Under the pieces are notes generated by a model. That model was not told where the DNA came from. It worked only from the letters and a program-made list of their open reading frames with translations, and ran no database searches. DNA of 7,097 nucleotides, taken from an uncultured Ruminococcus sp. GTDB taxonomy: Bacteria; Bacillota; Clostridia; Oscillospirales; Acutalibacteraceae. Shown here piece by piece: positions 1 to 7,097 of the stretch; the first letter of the stretch is position 1, and every line of letters starts with the position of its first letter. The stretch is taken from positions 1-7,097 of the forward strand of contig USJJ01000063.1 of the NCBI GenBank assembly GCA_900554995.1. The letters are read 5' to 3'. The translations under genes were made by a program, and so were the position numbers.

Positions 1-327
1 GTAATCCATTTCAAGAGAGTCGGGCTGACTGTCGATAAAGATCAACCTTGCGCCCACATGACAAACAACCTCTGCCGTTGCTGTGTAGGTGTATGCCGGT
101 ACGATTACCTCGTCACCCTCGCCGATTCCGAGCAGTCGCAGTGCAATTTCCGCACAGGACGTCTGCGATGAAAGGCAAACTGCCTTATCAGTATTGCAGA
201 ACTCGGCAACCTCCTTTTCGAGAGCTTTTGTTTTGGGGCCCGTAGTGATCCAGCCCGATTTTAAAGCTGAGGCGACTTCCTCAATTTCCGCATCAGTCAG
301 ATCCGGCGGAGAAAATGGTATTTTCAT
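1..327 (-). CDS. DegT/DnrJ/EryC1/StrS family aminotransferase (3' truncated)
   Basis: The first 109 codons are visible; the gene runs off the low-coordinate edge. The opening MKIPFSPPDLTDAEIEEV, then SGWITTGPKTKALEKEVAEF, SSQTSCAEIALRLLGIGEGD and EVIVPAYTYTATAEVV are the standard N-terminal landmarks of PLP-dependent sugar aminotransferases (PF01041). The TS pair in the SSQTSCAEIAL loop is the usual contact for the PLP phosphate. The catalytic lysine lies beyond the window. These enzymes add an amino group to a 3- or 4-keto nucleotide sugar for capsule, O-antigen or glycan building blocks. ATG at 327 has a good AAAGGGG site. It follows the nucleotidyltransferase by 24 nt, and with the chain-length regulator at the other end it supports a polysaccharide locus. 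Which keto-sugar it uses cannot be told from this fragment. Confidence 0.93.
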   Translation of the reverse strand, partial: MKIPFSPPDLTDAEIEEVASALKSGWITTGPKTKALEKEVAEFCNTDKAVCLSSQTSCAEIALRLLGIGEGDEVIVPAYTYTATAEVVCHVGARLIFIDSQPDSLEMDY

Positions 328-351: not shown

Positions 352-1557
352 CTATTTCTTTTTTAATCCGTAATCGGATAATAATTTAATACGTTTGTTT
401 CCCTTTTCAATCGCCTTTTTTTCGGCTTCGGGGTTTCGTTTATTTTTAATATATCCAGTGATTCTTTTGCAATATACCGACGGCAGCTTCCACGGCTTGT
501 CATAAAGCTCGGGGTGCATCGACGAAAGCAAATCGTAGGAGGGGAAAGCCGAGCGAAAAAGCCCGAAACGACTTCCTCCCGTTTTCGAGAATATAAATGT
601 GCCTGCGTAAGTAAGATCTTTGTCATCATAACCGAATGTTCCGCCGTCCATAAGGTCGGTGAGGAGTCTGTCGCAGTCAAGCCCCTCGGCAGAGGCGGTT
701 TCCTCTCCGCCGAGGAGATTCATAAGTTTTACGGTGTCCGCATAAAACGATCCGTCGATAAACTCGGTGAATTTTTTTTCGGCGCCGGGAAAATCAATGA
801 TATCTTTATATTTATTTCCAAACACGGCAAGGTCAGTCACGTGGCGGAGACCTGCGCCGGTTGTCATAAAATGCTTTAAGTAATGAAAAAGTAAAAATAA
901 GTAGTGATCCGTAGGCTGAAGAGTGTATATTTCAACCTTGTCACACAGCATTTTATACGGATTTTTCAGCGACTCATCAAAGCAGCGGTTCATCGCTTTG
1001 CGCACGGGATTCTGTGTGCCGAAAAGGTTGAGGTGCAGCTCAATTTTCAGATGAGCCGTCTCACTGCTGTAAGCGACGGCGGCAATTCTGCTGAGATATC
1101 TGTCGGAATATTCTCTTTCATCCTCCGGCAAATAGCCGTTATCCGTAAGGATTTTGTGACAGAGGGGGAAGTTGCTTTTTGAAATGAAGATATCCTCGTC
1201 TCCGGACGCCCGATGATTTTCGAGATTTCCGTATGCCTTGCGGCAGACAAGACCTTTCAAAACAATCGGCTTAAGTCCCTCATCGGTCAGCTTTGAATAA
1301 ATCGAAAGAAATTCCGCAGTGTTTTGCGTTTGCCTGATGACAGACTTCGTGGAGTTGTCTATCAGCCGAGCTTTTATAGAGATCGGTGCTGTCGCAAATT
1401 CGGGATATTTTATTGCTCCCTCCAAAAATATCGGAGCGATGTCCTGACAGAACGCAAGCTCACCGAGAGATCCAAAATCCGGCTCGACAAGATTCGACAT
1501 ATTACCTGTCAGCGAGGTGTTTATAATTTTTAAAAAATTGTCGTATTGCTTATTCAT
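352..1557 (-). CDS. NTP_transf_5-type nucleotidyltransferase
   Basis: A 401-residue protein. The stretch PIVLKGLVCRKAYG (97-110) followed by RASGDEDIFIS (116-126) matches the 'vLKGxalxxxxY...RxxgDxDllv' core of the uncharacterised nucleotidyltransferase family NTP_transf_5 (PF14907). Asp120 and Asp122 are the likely metal ligands, and Glu173 in KIELHLNLFG the likely third acid. The C-terminal half is mostly helical and otherwise undiagnostic. Such proteins recur in lasso-peptide clusters that also carry a HprK-like kinase, and in some exosortase/polysaccharide loci with PqqD-like proteins. In pseudomycoidin biosynthesis the homologous gene is linked to further decoration of a phosphorylated C-terminal residue. 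Its ATG overlaps the ABC transporter's end by 8 nt, and no strong ribosome binding site is visible, so translational coupling is likely. Substrate here is inferred, possibly the phosphorylated peptide, a sugar phosphate being the alternative. Confidence 0.85.
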   Translation of the reverse strand: MNKQYDNFLKIINTSLTGNMSNLVEPDFGSLGELAFCQDIAPIFLEGAIKYPEFATAPISIKARLIDNSTKSVIRQTQNTAEFLSIYSKLTDEGLKPIVLKGLVCRKAYGNLENHRASGDEDIFISKSNFPLCHKILTDNGYLPEDEREYSDRYLSRIAAVAYSSETAHLKIELHLNLFGTQNPVRKAMNRCFDESLKNPYKMLCDKVEIYTLQPTDHYLFLLFHYLKHFMTTGAGLRHVTDLAVFGNKYKDIIDFPGAEKKFTEFIDGSFYADTVKLMNLLGGEETASAEGLDCDRLLTDLMDGGTFGYDDKDLTYAGTFIFSKTGGSRFGLFRSAFPSYDLLSSMHPELYDKPWKLPSVYCKRITGYIKNKRNPEAEKKAIEKGNKRIKLLSDYGLKKK

Positions 1558-3298
1558 CTGACATATTCTTTTTATCCAGCAGCTCGATTCCGTTTTCCGA
1601 CACCGAGTAAATGACGTCGGACAGGTTGAATACGCTGGGCTTGTGTGAGGTTAATATAATCATCTTATTGCGATTATTTTTTAATATATTTGAAAGAACG
1701 TTTTTCTCTGTTGCGACGTCGAGCGCACTTGTCGCCTCGTCGAGCAGGAGGATAGGCGTGTCGGCAAGGAGGGCTCTCGCAATCGAAAGCCGCTGATTTT
1801 GTCCGTCCGAGAAGCACTGTCCACGTTCGGTAACAGCTGTGTTGATTGTATCGGGAAGTTTGGAAACAAATTCCCAGGCGCAGGCGTCCTGCAAGGCTTG
1901 CACGATCTCTTCGTCCGTTGCGTCCTGCTTTACCAGCCTGAGATTGTCGGCAATCGTGCCCGAGAAAACGGTGTTGTTCTGTGGTACGTAGCTGAACAGA
2001 GAGCGTGTGGCGGGACCGAGATTAATGCTGTCTCCGTCCTCATCGCTTACGGTGATACTGCCGTCTTTCGGCTTCATCAGTCCGAGCAGGAGGCGCAGGG
2101 TAGAGGTCTTGCCCTTTCCCGAGGCACCGATAAGCGCCGTTATTTTGCCGCTCTCGGCTTTCATATGGGAGTTCTTATATACAAAGGTTTCGTTGTTATA
2201 TGTGCAGGAGATATTGTCGCATACGAGCGTAAGGTTCTTCCGGCGGCAGTTATCTATAAAATCCTTTTCCTTTTCGGTAAGCGTTGCCTTTTCGGCAGGG
2301 AGCTCAAGAATTTCAAGCACACGGCCCGCACTTATGCCCGCCTTTATAAACGTGGGGGCGAGGGACACAACGGAGCTGAATGAGCTTGTGAGAGAGGAGG
2401 CCATAGACATAAACATCGAAAGCGTTCCGTATGTAATATCGCCTTTCCAAAGGCGGTAAAGAGCGAATCCGTAGCAGGAGTAGCTGACGAGCTGACCCAT
2501 AAGTCCCATTACGATCATCATCTGATTCTGGTAACGGTTCTGATCCATTGCAACGTTGAAGCCCTTTTGCTGAAAATTCCTGAACCGCTGAGAGAAAAGG
2601 TCAACAAGTCCGAAAGATTTAATTGTTTGAAGATTTTGGTAGCTTTCTTCCTCAATTGCAAGCCTTTCGCTTGCAAGCTCACGGTTTTTCTTTTGGAATT
2701 CCGTTGCTTTTCCGAATCGGAATCTTGCCGTCAGTACCGTGACGGGCGCTCCCGCAAGAGCAATCAGAGCCATAATCGGGTCGTAATGCAGTATTATAAA
2801 GAAAGCGCCGATAAAATTCACGAGTGCGGTTACAACATTCGGGATATAGCTGAGAACCATATTCGAGACAATGCCGACGTCGGCACCCGTTCTTGTCATA
2901 ATATCGGCTGAGTGATAGGCAGATATCGCTGTCCATTCCGTGTTCATCAGGCGGTCGTAAACATCATTTTTTATCTGTATTCCGACATTGAGACGCACCT
3001 TCAGGGAAACGCGGTTGGTAAGAGCATTGATAAATATTTTGGTAACTGCCGTTCCGATATATACGGCGACAACGGGAGCTATCGCCATTGAAATTTGTCC
3101 GGTAACGGAGTCGATGAGGTCTTTCATTATCCAGGAGGTGAAAAGTCCCATTGCCGTAGAAATCAGTCCGATGCAGGAAAAGGCAATGACCTGACCCTTG
3201 TACCGCAGAATGTAACTGAAAATCCAGCTCCACGAGTGAAGTATTTTCTTTATTTCATTGTGATTTAGGTATTTCCTGAATTTATCAATGATTTTCAA
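1550..3298 (-). CDS. ABC exporter, fused transmembrane and ATPase domains
   Basis: A 582-residue half-transporter of the exporter (MsbA-like) class. The membrane domain covers about residues 25-330, with hydrophobic segments near 36-56, 74-90, 151-190 and 260-320. The ATPase domain covers about 357-575: Walker A GASGKGKT (391-398), Q-loop Gln440, signature FSDGQ (496-500), Walker B ILLLDE (516-521) and switch His552 in TSHKP. The signature departs from the usual LSGGQ but keeps Ser, Gly and Gln; most families tolerate this. There is no N-terminal C39 peptidase domain, so it cannot itself cleave a double-glycine leader. It starts at TTG 5 nt after the kinase stop and its end overlaps the nucleotidyltransferase start by 8 nt. 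It most likely works as a homodimer in the cytoplasmic membrane. Context suggests export of the modified peptide, but a lipid-linked saccharide is possible. Confidence 0.93.
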   Translation of the reverse strand: MKIIDKFRKYLNHNEIKKILHSWSWIFSYILRYKGQVIAFSCIGLISTAMGLFTSWIMKDLIDSVTGQISMAIAPVVAVYIGTAVTKIFINALTNRVSLKVRLNVGIQIKNDVYDRLMNTEWTAISAYHSADIMTRTGADVGIVSNMVLSYIPNVVTALVNFIGAFFIILHYDPIMALIALAGAPVTVLTARFRFGKATEFQKKNRELASERLAIEEESYQNLQTIKSFGLVDLFSQRFRNFQQKGFNVAMDQNRYQNQMMIVMGLMGQLVSYSCYGFALYRLWKGDITYGTLSMFMSMASSLTSSFSSVVSLAPTFIKAGISAGRVLEILELPAEKATLTEKEKDFIDNCRRKNLTLVCDNISCTYNNETFVYKNSHMKAESGKITALIGASGKGKTSTLRLLLGLMKPKDGSITVSDEDGDSINLGPATRSLFSYVPQNNTVFSGTIADNLRLVKQDATDEEIVQALQDACAWEFVSKLPDTINTAVTERGQCFSDGQNQRLSIARALLADTPILLLDEATSALDVATEKNVLSNILKNNRNKMIILTSHKPSVFNLSDVIYSVSENGIELLDKKNMSDE

Positions 3299-3303
3299 AT
3301 TAA

Positions 3304-4074
3304 TTATCCTAACTTTTTTTCTAAGGCTTCAACCGCCCGAATATCCTTTGTACATTCAAGTTTATAAACGGGTACGCTTTTTAACAGCCCGTCGAGGGTG
3401 CTCATTCCGAGCTCCTTGCAGCCGTTAAACCAGTCCGGAAGCATAGCCTCGGGGAAAACACTGAGCATTTCCATACCGCTGACAGCTTCTATCCGACATT
3501 CGTCGCTTTTGATCGGCGTGACGATTGCCTTTATCGGCAGCTTTACATTCAGGCAGTATTCCGACGAGCCGTGCCACGGAGAGCCGCAGGCGTAAAAACG
3601 TCCGTCATCATCCTTATGGATAAAAACCATATCTCCGTTGACGATCCTTGCTCCGCGGTGCTCGTTCCAGAGCTCCGCCTGAGTGGTTTTGCCGACTCCC
3701 GACGGACCCGTGAAAAGAATTGCTTCACCGTTGCGCTCGATCATACTACTGTGCATCACCAGGGTGTCACGGCGAATAAGATTGCCGTAGAGCGCAACCA
3801 TAGCGCATCCGTATATTCCCTGAATATCATCCGAATTTCCGCAGATTTTGCCCTCGGTAAAATCCCTGTTTATACAAAGGACGCTGTCCGACACACGGAA
3901 TGCCTTTCCTCCATCATAAACGGGAAGAGTCTCCGCCCCGTAAAGATCGACATTTTTCGACTCAAGACTGAGCCGCATAACAGGCTCGTCTGTGCCGCTG
4001 TCCCGAAAATTCCGCCAATATCCGTCAAAAAAATCGAAGATGAAAGGGCAGACAATACGATAACGGTTTTCCAT
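3304..4074 (-). CDS. HPr kinase-related P-loop kinase
   Basis: A 256-residue protein. The segment LVMHSSMIERNGEAILF leads into Walker A GPSGVGKT (residues 123-130), in the pattern of HprK C-terminal-like kinases ('H-x-x-x-v-x-G-x-a-i-l-f-x-G-x-S-G-x-G-K-T'). IVNGDMVFI (about 144-152) fits the acidic strand after the P-loop, and SPWHGSSEY (about 165-173) fits the family's conserved 'G-x-PWHG' region. The N-terminal HPr kinase domain is absent, so this is not the catabolite regulator HprK. Relatives are found beside PqqD proteins in peptide-modifying clusters, including lasso-peptide kinases (PadeK type) that phosphorylate a C-terminal serine. ATG at 4074 overlaps the stop of the 98-aa peptide by one base, so the two are coupled; a TTG three codons upstream has no better site. 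Protein target is inferred to be that peptide, which ends in Ser. It could instead act on a small molecule. Confidence 0.85.
   Translation of the reverse strand: MENRYRIVCPFIFDFFDGYWRNFRDSGTDEPVMRLSLESKNVDLYGAETLPVYDGGKAFRVSDSVLCINRDFTEGKICGNSDDIQGIYGCAMVALYGNLIRRDTLVMHSSMIERNGEAILFTGPSGVGKTTQAELWNEHRGARIVNGDMVFIHKDDDGRFYACGSPWHGSSEYCLNVKLPIKAIVTPIKSDECRIEAVSGMEMLSVFPEAMLPDWFNGCKELGMSTLDGLLKSVPVYKLECTKDIRAVEALEKKLG
3307..3310 (-). promoter_or_regulatory. Ribosome binding site supporting a TTG start for the ABC transporter
   Basis: AGGA on the minus strand, ending 8 nt before TTG at 3298, and overlapping the last codons of the kinase gene. The next in-frame ATG is some 50 codons downstream and would remove the first membrane segment, so TTG is the likely start. 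Confidence 0.65.
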
Positions 4075-4370
4075 TATGAGCAACCGATCATATTGACGTA
4101 CATTCCGCCGTGCAGGTTAAGGTACTGCGTAACCTTCGGGGCGATTTCTTCATGACTTGTTCCGTAAACGTTCATTGATGAAAGCGATCCGCTCACGAAA
4201 TCATAGTAAGGGAGATCCCAGCCCTGTCCTACAACACCGCCGTCAAGCGTCCATCTTGCGGTTGCGGTACCCGTTGCGTTGGAAGCACGGTTAGGGTCGT
4301 CACTGCCTGTTGTAACATAGTCCGAGCCGAGAGTTACGTCATAGGCTTCAACAGGTACGTATTCATCCAT
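4074..4370 (-). CDS. 98-aa peptide of unknown family, candidate RiPP precursor
   Basis: I do not recognise this protein. It has 98 residues, is acidic at the N-terminus and rich in Gly, Ser, Thr, Asp and aromatics (eight Tyr, two Trp), with a single lysine. It has no signal peptide or membrane segment. The only cysteine is Cys97, next to the C-terminal Ser98. A GG pair lies at 44-45 and another at 88-89, the latter leaving a nine-residue tail MYVNMIGCS. ATG at 4370 is chosen for its GGAGG site; the stop TAA shares one base with the next gene's ATG (TAATG). Its place between a radical SAM/SPASM enzyme and a HPr-kinase-like protein, after a PqqD-like protein, is what makes it a precursor candidate: N-terminal leader bound by PqqD, C-terminal core modified. 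Alternatives are a small structural or accessory protein of the polysaccharide machinery. That it is a real gene is likely; its role as precursor is inference. Confidence 0.75.
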   Translation of the reverse strand: MDEYVPVEAYDVTLGSDYVTTGSDDPNRASNATGTATARWTLDGGVVGQGWDLPYYDFVSGSLSSMNVYGTSHEEIAPKVTQYLNLHGGMYVNMIGCS

Positions 4371-4371
4371 C

Positions 4372-5403
4372 TTATATTCCTCCAATCGTTTGGTTAAGGA
4401 TCCTGTCAATATATCGACAAAAATCCTTGTTTATTTTGTTAACCGAGCCGCTTTCCGTTGCCAGAGTTGCGGCACATTTGGGACATTTCTGCGACCATTT
4501 GCATTTCTGACATTCCTCCGGCCATTGTAAATTTTCCTCATACTCAACAAGATTTTTCCACGCATCGGAAAAGCCTGATGAAAGGGGCGAAATGTCGGGT
4601 TTGTTGAGAAAAGCGCAAAAGCTCATTTTGCCGTCCCATTTTATCCAATAGCCCGTGCGGTATGTTCTGCATTTTTCGCAGGGCTTTGTTACCTTTATTT
4701 GCTTATTTACTGCACTGACTGCGTCGTCACACAGATAAGGGTATGCGCTGTCGGGAAGCCGAAGCTCCTCAATATTATTATTTGCGCCACGCAGAGATTT
4801 TCTGAGACTTGCCGACGCCGTCCAGGGGATTTGCAGCTTTGACATAAGCTCTGAAATTGCCGGCAGGTCGTTATAATTATCGTTTGTCACGGTCGTTACG
4901 GCGGTCAGCGGGATTCCGATTTCCCTGATGCGTTCTATATTTTCGACAACCATTGAAAAGCCGTCGATGACGCCGCAAACTTTTTGATAGGTTCTGTCGC
5001 TTGCTCCGTAGATTGTGAATTTAATCAGCTTCGGCGGATATTTTTTCAAAAGCTCGAAGCATTCGTCGCTGAAGCGGTAAAGATTTGATTGCAGAGTGAT
5101 TATAAAGCCCATACGGGAAAGCTCGGAATAGATTCGGCAAAATTCGGGGTGCCTTGTCGGCTCGCCGCCTGTAATGCAAAGGAAGAGCGTGCCCGCCGAC
5201 ATTGCCTGTCTGCCGAGCGATATCCACTCCTCAGCACTGAGCTCATTGCCGTGCTCGGAAATCTCGCTGTCCTTGAGATGGACATAGCACATACGGCAGT
5301 TCAGATTACAGCGTGGCGTCAGCTCAAACGTGGCAAAAATGGGAACAGCCTTTTCCTTAGCCTTTATAAGCATCTCATACGGTGCCGCCGCAATAGGAAT
5401 CAT
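4372..5403 (-). CDS. Radical SAM/SPASM domain protein, putative peptide maturase
   Basis: A 343-residue protein. The radical SAM signature is CNLNCRMC, with Cys32, Cys36 and Cys39 to hold the SAM-binding 4Fe-4S cluster. GGEP, the SAM-binding motif of the family, follows in the stretch FLCITGGEPTRHPEF. The C-terminus has a SPASM-type cysteine set: Cys242, Cys245, then GX4C ending at Cys263, Cys298/Cys301/Cys307/Cys310 (CX2CX5CX2C), and Cys329. This is enough for auxiliary iron-sulfur clusters. SPASM enzymes often modify ribosomal peptides, for example by thioether or carbon-carbon crosslinks. The upstream PqqD-like gene overlaps its start by 4 nt, and a small peptide gene begins 2 nt after the last base of its stop codon, with that gene's ribosome binding site inside this coding end. 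That layout argues for a peptide substrate. The reaction cannot be read from sequence. It is not a clear PqqE: no pqqA- or pqqC-like gene is nearby. Confidence 0.92.
   Translation of the reverse strand: MIPIAAAPYEMLIKAKEKAVPIFATFELTPRCNLNCRMCYVHLKDSEISEHGNELSAEEWISLGRQAMSAGTLFLCITGGEPTRHPEFCRIYSELSRMGFIITLQSNLYRFSDECFELLKKYPPKLIKFTIYGASDRTYQKVCGVIDGFSMVVENIERIREIGIPLTAVTTVTNDNYNDLPAISELMSKLQIPWTASASLRKSLRGANNNIEELRLPDSAYPYLCDDAVSAVNKQIKVTKPCEKCRTYRTGYWIKWDGKMSFCAFLNKPDISPLSSGFSDAWKNLVEYEENLQWPEECQKCKWSQKCPKCAATLATESGSVNKINKDFCRYIDRILNQTIGGI
4379..4383 (-). promoter_or_regulatory. Strong ribosome binding site of the 98-aa peptide gene
   Basis: GGAGG on the minus strand, 8 nt before ATG at 4370 and inside the last codons of the radical SAM gene. 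It is the best Shine-Dalgarno match in the cassette. It fixes the start at 4370 rather than at an upstream TTG (4409), and suggests higher expression of the peptide than of its neighbours. Confidence 0.85.
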
Positions 5404-5684
5404 AGGTTATCACTCATATCCAGTATATTATTCTTCATAAGGATCTGCAGGAAACAGATGATATCCTCCTGAGCCTTTTCACGTGTGACGTTTTTGTATT
5501 TTGACATAATGAGGTCGGTGAGCTCATCCAGGGTGAAATTCTTGCCGTCCATATACTGCCAAAGATATGCGGCGGACGATGAAATATACACCATAGACGT
5601 TACATCCTTAACACGCTCCATCACCGGAACAATGACATACTGTCCGGCAATTTCACGCAGAACAAGCTGATCCTTTACTCTCAT
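5400..5684 (-). CDS. PqqD-like RiPP recognition element protein
   Basis: A 94-residue protein with the length and pattern of the PqqD family (PF05402). It opens with the typical LREIAGQYVIVPV strand motif (about residues 8-20). Then comes a segment matching the family's 'aaxlWxxldG' core (SSAAYLWQYMDGK, about 37-49), followed by a DELTDLI/EKAQEDIICFLQIL helical region ending in a short tail. PqqD-type domains form a winged-helix fold that binds the leader part of a precursor peptide and presents it to a modifying enzyme, often a radical SAM protein. ATG at 5684 is chosen because GAGGAG sits 7 nt upstream; a TTG two codons earlier would be only about 3 nt from that site. Its stop overlaps the next gene's start by 4 nt (ATGA), so PqqD and the radical SAM enzyme are translationally coupled, as expected for partners. 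No gene symbol is given because true pqqD function is unlikely here. Confidence 0.9.
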   Translation of the reverse strand: MRVKDQLVLREIAGQYVIVPVMERVKDVTSMVYISSSAAYLWQYMDGKNFTLDELTDLIMSKYKNVTREKAQEDIICFLQILMKNNILDMSDNL

Positions 5685-5691
5685 ATTCAAA

Positions 5692-5714: not shown

Positions 5715-7097
5715 TTATTTATCGGATTTTTCGTCTCCGTAGGAGCCGTATCCGTATCCGCCGTAGCTGCGGTAGCCGTATTTTCCGTACTTGCCGTAAC
5801 GTCCGTATCCGTAGTAGCCGTAGCTGTATCCGGGATCAAGGATGCTTTCCTTTGCGGCGTTGAGAACGCCGCCGATGATGTTACAGCCTCTTGTCGAAAT
5901 ATTATTCACACAGTCGAGGATCGTCCATCTGTGGGTTGAATCCTGACGTATAACGAACAGTATTCCGTCGCAGTATTCGGAAATCAAAAGCGGGTCTGTT
6001 GTAATGGCGCACGGGGGAGAATCGACGATAACGTAATCTGCAATGTTTTTAAGCTCGCTCATAAATTCACGCATTTTTTCGTCATTCAATTTCTTCTCCG
6101 GGGTCTTGCTCGGCATCTCACTGCCGAAAACAAGGAAATTGTCGGGATTCTCGCTGAAAAGGCGTTTGATCTTTTTGTCACAGCCCTCCGACTGAACACG
6201 CAAAACCTTGTTGTCGGTGAAGTGCTTCTTCACGGTTTTAGGTTCTCCGAGGAGCCTGTCAAGCGAGCAGTAGTTTCTGTCTCCACCGGTAGTCTTGCTC
6301 AATGTCAGCTTTCTGAGGTCAAGGTCGACCAAAGCGACTTTCTTGTTCGGATTGCCGTCCTTAATAAAACGTGCAAGATTCAGGGCAACCGAGCTCTTTC
6401 CCTCGTTTGCGAGGGCGGCAGTTACCATAAGAACCTTTGCATCGGATCTTTGCATTGCGCGTATTACCTTGAGCGAAACAGCCTTCATACTCTCAGCATA
6501 TCTCTTGCCGTTCTCTGTCGATTCATCGGCAAAAATCGGACGATCGTTTTTCTTCCTGCCCGTCTTGGTGAACGGAATAATTCCGAGACAGTTCATATTG
6601 AGCCTGTCGCCGAAATCCTGCTCGGTCTGAATCGTCTTTTTGAAAAGAGCGGTGATTACGATAACAACAAGGCTGGCTCCCGCGGTCACCGCAAAGCAGA
6701 TAAGAATCGCCATAAGATAGTTGACCTTGTTGTTCGGGCTTGTGGGGACGGAGCTCGGCTGGATGATGTTGAGCTTCGTCTCGCCGATAACATATCTTGA
6801 AACGTCGGGCAGCCTTTTTACTACGGCGTCAAGGATAGCTTTTGCGTCCTCGGGATCCTTGCTGACAACGGATATCGAGAAAAGATTGGAATTTTTAATC
6901 GCATTAAGCGTTATTGTTCCGTTGATCTTATCGGCATCAAGCTCGTCCTTCAAAATCTCTTTGAAAACCGAGCTTTTGAGGATATAGGGGAGAACCTTAG
7001 CCATCTGCTCGGCGTTTGCGGAATCGTAGTAGAAACCGTACGATGCGGCAATTTCGGCATAGGAGGTTGTTGTATTGACGGTGAACGACGCCTTGGC
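5715..7097 (-). CDS. Wzz/Wzc-like chain-length regulator fused to BY-type tyrosine kinase (5' truncated)
   Basis: The frame stays open to the window edge, so the N-terminus is missing; 460 residues are visible. Numbering from the first visible codon, residues 1-120 look like the periplasmic/extracytoplasmic part of a Wzz-type polysaccharide co-polymerase. A hydrophobic membrane segment follows at about 127-153. After it comes a cytoplasmic P-loop kinase domain: Walker A ALANEGKSS at 228-236, Walker A' VALVDLDLRK at 254-263 and Walker B YVIVDSPP at 355-362. This order is that of bacterial tyrosine kinases which set polysaccharide chain length and autophosphorylate a C-terminal tyrosine cluster. 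Many Firmicutes split the two domains into two proteins (CapA/CapB); here they are fused, as in Wzc. The last 40 residues hold 13 tyrosines alternating with glycine. The usual EX2RX2R oligomerisation motif is not evident before Walker A; the equivalent stretch (ESMKAVSLKV) lacks both arginines. The stop lies 30 nt before the PqqD-like gene. Family call is firm; the polysaccharide it serves is unknown. Confidence 0.93.
   Translation of the reverse strand, partial: AKASFTVNTTTSYAEIAASYGFYYDSANAEQMAKVLPYILKSSVFKEILKDELDADKINGTITLNAIKNSNLFSISVVSKDPEDAKAILDAVVKRLPDVSRYVIGETKLNIIQPSSVPTSPNNKVNYLMAILICFAVTAGASLVVIVITALFKKTIQTEQDFGDRLNMNCLGIIPFTKTGRKKNDRPIFADESTENGKRYAESMKAVSLKVIRAMQRSDAKVLMVTAALANEGKSSVALNLARFIKDGNPNKKVALVDLDLRKLTLSKTTGGDRNYCSLDRLLGEPKTVKKHFTDNKVLRVQSEGCDKKIKRLFSENPDNFLVFGSEMPSKTPEKKLNDEKMREFMSELKNIADYVIVDSPPCAITTDPLLISEYCDGILFVIRQDSTHRWTILDCVNNISTRGCNIIGGVLNAAKESILDPGYSYGYYGYGRYGKYGKYGYRSYGGYGYGSYGDEKSDK
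5739..5828 (-). repeat. Low-complexity Tyr/Gly-coding repeat in the kinase tail
   Basis: On the plus strand this stretch is an irregular tandem of short units such as ccgta, ccgtatc and ccgtag, read in the gene as Gly-Tyr, Gly-Lys-Tyr or Gly-Arg-Tyr units. All 13 tail tyrosines fall here. The units are imperfect and in frame, so the repeat is explained by the protein. It may be prone to length change by slippage. Confidence 0.8.

Follow-up and report, generated by a model that had tools for sequence, protein, structure and literature searches.

A probable ribosomal-peptide maturation cassette near exopolysaccharide genes, with a hypervariable peptide/kinase block

Closest described systems and the six-gene row

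Lasso peptides such as paeninodin and pseudomycoidin come from gene clusters in which an HprK-like kinase and a nucleotidyltransferase stand beside the precursor and a PqqD-like protein is also encoded (PMC9266682). According to the same review, the HprK-like kinases put a phosphate on the C-terminal Ser of lasso precursors and share a His-Lys-Asp-Asp catalytic set, and in pseudomycoidin the attachment of a hexose to that phosphate is linked to a nucleotidyltransferase-like protein (PMC9266682). We have analysed a 7,097-nt stretch of DNA from an uncultured Ruminococcus sp. (contig USJJ01000063.1; the whole stretch is called the window below), in which both enzyme families occur in a row of six minus-strand genes (352-5690) for a PqqD-like protein, a radical S-adenosylmethionine (SAM)/SPASM enzyme, a 98-aa orphan, an HprK-like protein, an ABC exporter and an NTP_transf_5 nucleotidyltransferase-like protein. 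An initial annotation, made from the DNA letters, had read the row as a cassette for a ribosomally synthesized and post-translationally modified peptide (RiPP), an interpretation that is partly supported by our results. The families it named were confirmed by Pfam (the HprK-like match is below the cut-off and the orphan is without a match). Its tight junctions, overlapping or at most 5 nt apart, were measured at −10 to +5 nt (PqqD to radical SAM −4, radical SAM to peptide 1, peptide to kinase −10, kinase to ABC 5, ABC to NTP_transf_5 −8), and its placement of the row between a Wzc-like kinase and a sugar aminotransferase also stands: a partial Wzc-like gene lies on one side and a partial DegT aminotransferase gene on the other, both on the minus strand and each 24 nt from the row. 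The −10 overlap assumes a TTG start for the kinase; an alternative ATG at 4074 overlaps the peptide stop by 1.

The C-terminal Ser of the window's peptide is a further likeness to lasso peptides. In place of a lasso cyclase and a B2 protease, however, the row has a radical SAM/SPASM enzyme: neither an Asn-synthetase-like cyclase nor a B2 protease was among the families found in the eight window genes scanned, as the initial annotation had said. The likeness to lasso clusters that it had pointed to extends to the presence of the kinase and nucleotidyltransferase families in the row. The kinase itself falls outside the lasso type, keeping three of the four His-Lys-Asp-Asp residues reported essential for lasso kinases (the third is Gly in the window), and NTP_transf_5 proves optional among related loci. 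Lasso precursors are also shorter than the window's peptide.

Other described systems share parts of the row. Judged by its model names, the SynChlorMet cassette (NCBIfam TIGR04248-04251) brings PqqD-like, HprK-like and SPASM proteins together, but it has ScmE plus ScmF where the window has one radical SAM enzyme, and the window's proteins score 20.8 against a cut-off of 100, 24.1 against 125 and 56.6 against 400, with ScmC, ScmD, ScmE and ScmF all below their NCBIfam cut-offs; a literature search gave no paper under the SynChlorMet name. Among the sactipeptide maturases (SkfB, AlbA), SkfB, which matures the sporulation killing factor, is the closest solved relative of the radical SAM enzyme by sequence (chain 6efn, 2.5e-22), and the substrates have conserved Cys in common. 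Sactipeptides and ranthipeptides have short cores in which several Cys serve as thioether donors, whereas here there is usually one Cys (41 of 48 precursors), near the C-terminus of a 95-146-aa protein, and a kinase is present. The Wgk peptides (WgkB/WgkC) resemble the window in a PqqD protein paired with a SPASM radical SAM enzyme and in a conserved Trp, but the scores are 52.2 bits against a cut-off of 650 and 17.9 against 110, and a kinase and polysaccharide linkage are found here. All the NCBIfam models listed for SynChlorMet, Wgk, Skf, PqqE and others stay below cut-off, and none of the 25 best NCBIfam radical SAM models reaches its cut-off for the window's enzyme. What the loci do have, as RiPP clusters do, is a gene-encoded precursor linked to modifying enzymes (48 of the 49 loci in the clade described below). 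The absence of a characterised product with this combination, suspected initially, agrees with our literature search, in which no such cassette turned up. Each part has been described before; what looks new is the peptide family, the gene combination and the peptide/kinase block.

A divergent protein family behind the radical SAM gene

One genome per species was scanned for relatives of the radical SAM enzyme, and the best 80 of 271 relatives were kept. Among the resulting 81 loci (window included), profile matches at E ≤ 1e-4 anywhere within the locus were counted for PqqD (74), HprK-like (76), ABC (64), Wzc (45) and NTP_transf_5 (29) proteins, a recurrence of the gene set far beyond chance. 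A clade of 49 loci was then delimited, comprising L001-L046 by rank together with L068, L069 and L078, which were placed in it because the peptide family is present there. PqqD is encoded in all 49, the kinase in 47 (the contigs of the other two stop early), the ABC protein in 44 and NTP_transf_5 in 20, at most 600 nt from the cassette in 13. The families that the initial annotation expected to recur do so, the HprK-like protein being nearly constant and the nucleotidyltransferase optional. Neighbour families, named via representatives, are led by Wzc (40) and an Ig-like surface protein (PF16403, 39), followed by a LytTR regulator (30), CpsB (27), a GHKL sensor (16), a LytS-type sensor (12) and LCP (10).

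A frequent order is regulator/sensor, PqqD, radical SAM, peptide, kinase, ABC, Ig-like, Wzc-family pair, CpsB. In the nearest relative of the window (L001) the order is Ig-like, Wzc, Wzc, PqqD, radical SAM, peptide, kinase, ABC, NTP_transf_5, aminotransferase, identical to that of the window from the second Wzc onward; its ABC gene consists of two open reading frames (ORFs; 7277-9039). By record title the carriers are mostly Lachnospiraceae and Oscillospiraceae, with single loci in Olsenella (L035) and Faecalitalea (L045). The gene set is found in Clostridia and a few other bacteria, mostly adjoining capsule genes. One locus (L006, 5322-11074) has two PqqD-radical SAM-peptide-kinase modules in tandem, with peptides unlike each other.

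An ORF of the peptide family stands behind the radical SAM gene in 48 of the 49 clade loci, and in the remaining one (L019) the contig ends 97 nt past the radical SAM gene; the variable peptide expected in this slot is therefore there. Two loci (L069 and L041) have an extra ORF between the two genes. Neighbourhoods that keep the enzymes and lack a peptide gene, which the initial annotation had named as evidence against itself, were not seen in the clade; they occur only among the 31 more distant loci outside it, where the slot holds different small ORFs or none obvious. From 54 slot ORFs, six (L049, L052, L054, L055, L057 and L080) were set aside as other types, and the 48-member set that is left comes from the window and 46 loci, with two members from L006. 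Its sequences are very divergent and 95-146 aa long. In an alignment of 51 peptides M1, Y4, G45 and C97 are invariant, and W40 and W51 are kept in at least 90% (Trp in 45 and 47 of the 48, respectively). Exactly one Cys, within the last 15 residues, is found in 41 of the 48 peptides as compared with 23 of 1132 mechanical background ORFs of 90-150 aa; the remaining seven peptides have two or three Cys.

Leave-one-out profiles, trained solely on members less than 40% identical, recovered all 48 members at E ≤ 0.01 and 46 at E ≤ 1e-3 (5.3e-7 for the window's peptide). The left-out member ranked first in 42 cases, and in the other six it was outranked by the family member of L013, which, like that of L069, is outside the 48-member set and emerged among the best background matches. 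The profile of all 48 peptides matched at E ≤ 1e-3 in 49 of the 50 clade loci counted with the window, and gave no match below E 0.5 in the other 31 loci. Neither Pfam nor NCBIfam gives a match to the 98-aa ORF itself at E ≤ 0.1, and searching these databases with the whole family gave single weak matches and no fitting model. Close homologues of the peptide number nine proteins at E ≤ 0.01, as against 540 for the radical SAM enzyme. Because GGAGG stands ahead of its ATG and third codon positions are about twice as divergent as the others in comparison with L001 (22/21/42 differences over 98 codons), the ORF is a genuine coding gene.

A scan of 299 genomes of one family gave 13 peptide matches in 11 genomes, 12 of them directly behind a radical SAM match, and in 18 genomes reached via the loci 19 of 20 peptide matches adjoin a radical SAM match; since the same genomes fed the peptide profile, both counts are a test for orphans and not an independent sample. 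All 11 genomes are those of loci already in the set. The 299 genomes gave 17 radical SAM matches, including five weaker ones without a peptide match, a count in which weaker genes may be missing as up to six candidates per genome were scored. The two peptides without a radical SAM neighbour are that of the L091 stretch described below and that of a decayed-looking second copy on the contig of L032 (L081, 738-5565), in which a 5′-truncated peptide, a kinase and a split ABC gene follow CpsB-Wzc, with neither PqqD nor radical SAM.

The usual pair for peptide substrates is a PqqD protein, which binds the N-terminus of the precursor, and a SPASM enzyme, which modifies the peptide. The window's radical SAM enzyme has the superfamily motif (C32-x3-C36-x2-C39, each Cys in 51 of 51 clade sequences) and passes the PF04055 cut-off. 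The SPASM pattern Cx9-15Gx4C - Cx2Cx5Cx3C - C appears as C245-x12-G258-x4-C263, C298-x2-C301-x5-C307-x2-C310 and C329, one spacing being x2 instead of x3, and each of these seven Cys is kept in 50 or 51 of 51. The kinase-like protein has H111, GPSGxGKTT (126-134), N149-G150-D151 and GxPxHGSS (167-174), with H111, K132 and D151 in 44 of 44 sequences. In two loci (L020, 10321-11153; L026, 2655-3457) the N-terminal part of the kinase is out of frame with or separated from the catalytic part; these may be pseudogenes, sequencing errors or separate proteins. The NTP_transf_5 protein passes the gathering score and keeps K101-G102, D120-x-D122, E173 and H175 in 21 of 21. Its gene adjoins a LytR-CpsA-Psr-family gene in L003, L004, L024, L042 and L069, a hint at a role in linking polymers by phosphodiester.

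A hypervariable, probably exchangeable block of peptide gene and kinase start

Two loci whose records are both titled Mediterraneibacter (L028 and L029) encode nearly identical proteins, except in one place. Their proteins are 97% (radical SAM), 98% (PqqD), 99% (ABC, sensor and Ig-like), 100% (regulator) and 98% (kinase C-domain) identical, whereas the peptides share 24% and the kinase N-domains 20%. The DNA is 90-100% identical from the regulator to near the end of the radical SAM gene, 34-43% identical across most of the peptide gene and the kinase start, and mostly 85-99% identical from the kinase catalytic part onward, with two short stretches (after the kinase and after the ABC gene) at 5-43%. 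By blastn, homology breaks off near the radical SAM stop and resumes at about kinase codon 90-102 in four of six locus pairs (L028/L029, L012/L023, L007/L010 and L039/L044); the two pairs free of the gap, L034/L036 and L031/L032, have peptides that are alike (68% and 84%). Together, the peptide gene and some 90-102 codons at the kinase start make up one hypervariable block that differs as a unit between otherwise alike loci. Among the loci compared, no swap partner was seen for the window's own block.

In all 82 pairs with radical SAM identity above 70%, median identities are 28% for the peptide and 29% for the kinase N-domain, against 83% for the kinase C-domain, 81% for PqqD and 77% for ABC. 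Given radical SAM identity, peptide and kinase N-domain identities co-vary (r = 0.23, P = 0.0005, uncorrected and at the floor of 2000 permutations), also in three radical SAM ranges with a quadratic term (r = 0.21-0.32, with the same P); the two split kinases were left out of the kinase N/C identities and of the quadratic-term test and kept in the 82-pair analysis. Peptide identity did not co-vary with that of the kinase C-domain, PqqD or ABC. Taken separately, the N-terminal part of the peptide showed a weak co-variation with PqqD (r = 0.14, uncorrected P = 0.005, one of 18 tests) and the C-terminal part none. The block, like the two-component system found upstream in other genomes, was beyond the reach of the initial annotation.

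Proposed function, rival explanations and further observations

Taken together, the loci probably hold RiPP-type maturation cassettes that are linked to exopolysaccharide genes and have a peptide/kinase block open to exchange; we infer the modification, phosphorylation and function of the small protein from sequence. The PqqD protein would hold the N-terminus of the small protein, whose conserved Trp/Gly and Cys region is the predicted target of the radical SAM/SPASM enzyme. The likely kinase, with an N-domain that would read the peptide, would phosphorylate it, and the ABC transporter would export it. Where NTP_transf_5 is present, as in the window, it may extend the phosphate with a nucleotidyl or sugar group, in the way proposed for pseudomycoidin (PMC9266682). 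The product may be a strain-specific extracellular component made along with exopolysaccharide, with selection keeping its diversity. A fuller version of this proposal is offered tentatively: precursor and substrate-reading kinase half would pass between strains as a single allele, so that every strain has a mini-protein of its own that is radical SAM-modified, phosphorylated and, in some lineages, capped with a sugar, and that is made and displayed with the exopolysaccharide.

Several observations weigh against this reading. In all 44 kinases Gly150 sits at the first Asp of the HprK Asp-Asp pair, and the alignment to 1jb1 is weak (E 0.009). No protease family was found among the window's genes, nor a C39 peptidase domain on its ABC exporter (Pfam/NCBIfam), although a leader-cleaving protease is not present in every RiPP cluster. 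At position 47, where Thr is found in 36 of 48 peptides, that of the window has Val. The window's peptide and its near homologues end in Ser (bar the truncated P0008), but just eight of 48 peptides do, and the phosphosite would therefore have to differ in the others. One stretch (L091, 3417-5339) has PqqD followed by a family peptide and no radical SAM match along the part examined, and the genomes scanned overlap those behind the profile, as said above. The small peptide of the initial annotation is an orphan in the expected slot; the family is also long for peptides (95-146 aa), and in the better of two AlphaFold models, that of the L021 member, the C-terminal part folds. The model of the window's peptide is poor (54.2); that of L021 (68.4) has a predicted local distance difference test score (pLDDT) below 50 for residues 1-30 and of 78-94, by ten-residue block, for residues 41-110. 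A folded C-terminal part is unusual for a RiPP core; still, the model fits a leader followed by a folded, modified domain. Lastly, the pairing of peptide and kinase N-domain is not strict, as L002, L017, L021 and L028 share a peptide type (58-65% identical) and differ in the kinase N-domain (17-28%).

The main rival is antagonism with kinase-based self-protection: the modified peptide would be a narrow-spectrum bacteriocin killing relatives, from which the kinase, binding or phosphorylating it via the variable N-domain, would protect the producer, and the block would be a toxin/immunity allele. We consider this unlikely. The joint variation of peptide and kinase N-domain in one block would suit it, as would the LytTR regulators and the GHKL or LytS-type sensors at the loci, since such proteins are common in bacteriocin control. 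On the other hand, no separate immunity gene was recognised in the window's row, kinase N-domains differ within the single peptide group just mentioned, and bacteriocins are not typically linked with exopolysaccharide regulators such as those seen here (Wzc, 40 of 49 loci).

Somewhat less likely still is a small protein that is no RiPP but folds and assists or regulates the assembly of polysaccharide, with the radical SAM enzyme and kinase acting on sugars or on Wzc. The confident C-terminal part of the L021 model and the adjoining capsule genes would agree with this; a PqqD protein with a SPASM enzyme, usual for peptide substrates, the 12 of 13 peptide matches behind a radical SAM match, and a Cys, a Gly and a Tyr that are invariant in otherwise free sequence argue for the RiPP-type cassette instead. 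That the product is a quorum-sensing pheromone, detected by the two-component system next to it and turning on the exopolysaccharide operon, is improbable: 24 of 49 loci do have a response regulator or sensor gene no more than 400 nt upstream of pqqD, but none is among the recognised genes of the window or the examined L001 stretch, GHKL sensor and peptide identities do not co-vary (r = −0.05, 120 pairs), and across the L028/L029 block swap the sensor and regulator stay 99-100% identical, which argues against sensing of the peptide. For the same reason, the sensor being constant while the peptide differs, we favour an exported, diversified peptide made with exopolysaccharide.

If correct, the proposed cassette would add a peptide family covered by no Pfam or NCBIfam model and connect peptide modification by radical SAM enzymes with capsule loci. 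Recognition by the kinase N-domain and the enzymes could readily be tested on L028 and L029, which differ naturally in the block. Were the product antagonistic or surface-displayed, it would be a strain-level variable trait, possibly missed by cluster-finding rules built on known precursors.

Table 1. Positions of the window's genes, and of a second precursor class at other loci (locus coordinates)
Feature	Position	Strand	Basis
Wzc-like polysaccharide tyrosine autokinase, cut by window end	5715..7097	−	NCBIfam TIGR01007 6e-22, below cut-off; translation
PqqD-like peptide chaperone (RiPP recognition element), 94 aa; ATG at 5684, TTG start possible at 5690	5400..5684	−	PF05402, 44.3 bits (cut-off 23.4)
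Radical SAM/SPASM enzyme, 343 aa	4372..5403	−	PF04055, 83.7 bits (cut-off 29.5)
98-aa substrate candidate: N-terminal Y4-x2-V region, W40...GGVVGQGW51, C97, C-terminal Ser	4074..4370	−	Family alignment, leave-one-out profile
HprK-like kinase: hypervariable N-domain 1-104, conserved P-loop domain 105-259	3304..4083	−	Hpr_kinase_C, 20.9 bits, below cut-off 33.3
Window equivalent of exchangeable block (peptide gene and kinase codons 1-104)	3772..4370	−	Homology with block edges in four locus pairs
ABC exporter, membrane and ATPase parts (ABC_membrane, ABC_tran)	1550..3298	−	PF00664 and PF00005
NTP_transf_5 nucleotidyltransferase-like protein: K101-G102, D120-x-D122, E173, H175	352..1557	−	PF14907, 119.9 bits (cut-off 31.2)
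DegT/DnrJ/EryC1 sugar aminotransferase, cut by window end	1..327	−	PF01041, 101.6 bits
Second precursor class, L047	258-518 and 2977-3240
Second precursor class, L048	180-440
Second precursor class, L056	7179-7445 and 7486-7737
Second precursor class, L058	6898-7191 and 7309-7563
Second precursor class, L059	6872-7162 and 7346-7600

The C-terminal tail of the window's Wzc-like protein (5715-5830) is dense in Tyr and Gly, a feature of autophosphorylating capsule tyrosine kinases. The L091 stretch adjoins a gene that resembles an integrase by eye, and a complete cassette lies on a different contig of that genome (G122). A variant of the row occurs in L053 (2842-13114) and L062 (3027-13102), with NTP_transf_5 proteins of 659 and 615 aa, Ig-like and Wzc-family genes upstream and, behind the radical SAM gene, a 119- or 121-aa ORF of a different type ending in KY. 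Near more distant radical SAM relatives we observed the second precursor class of Table 1, often in two copies; its leader is approximately KxWxxPxxKVxxVKLxENIAAS, D-T is invariant and a Cys lies close to the C-terminus, and its neighbours resemble, by eye, glycosyltransferases and small membrane proteins.

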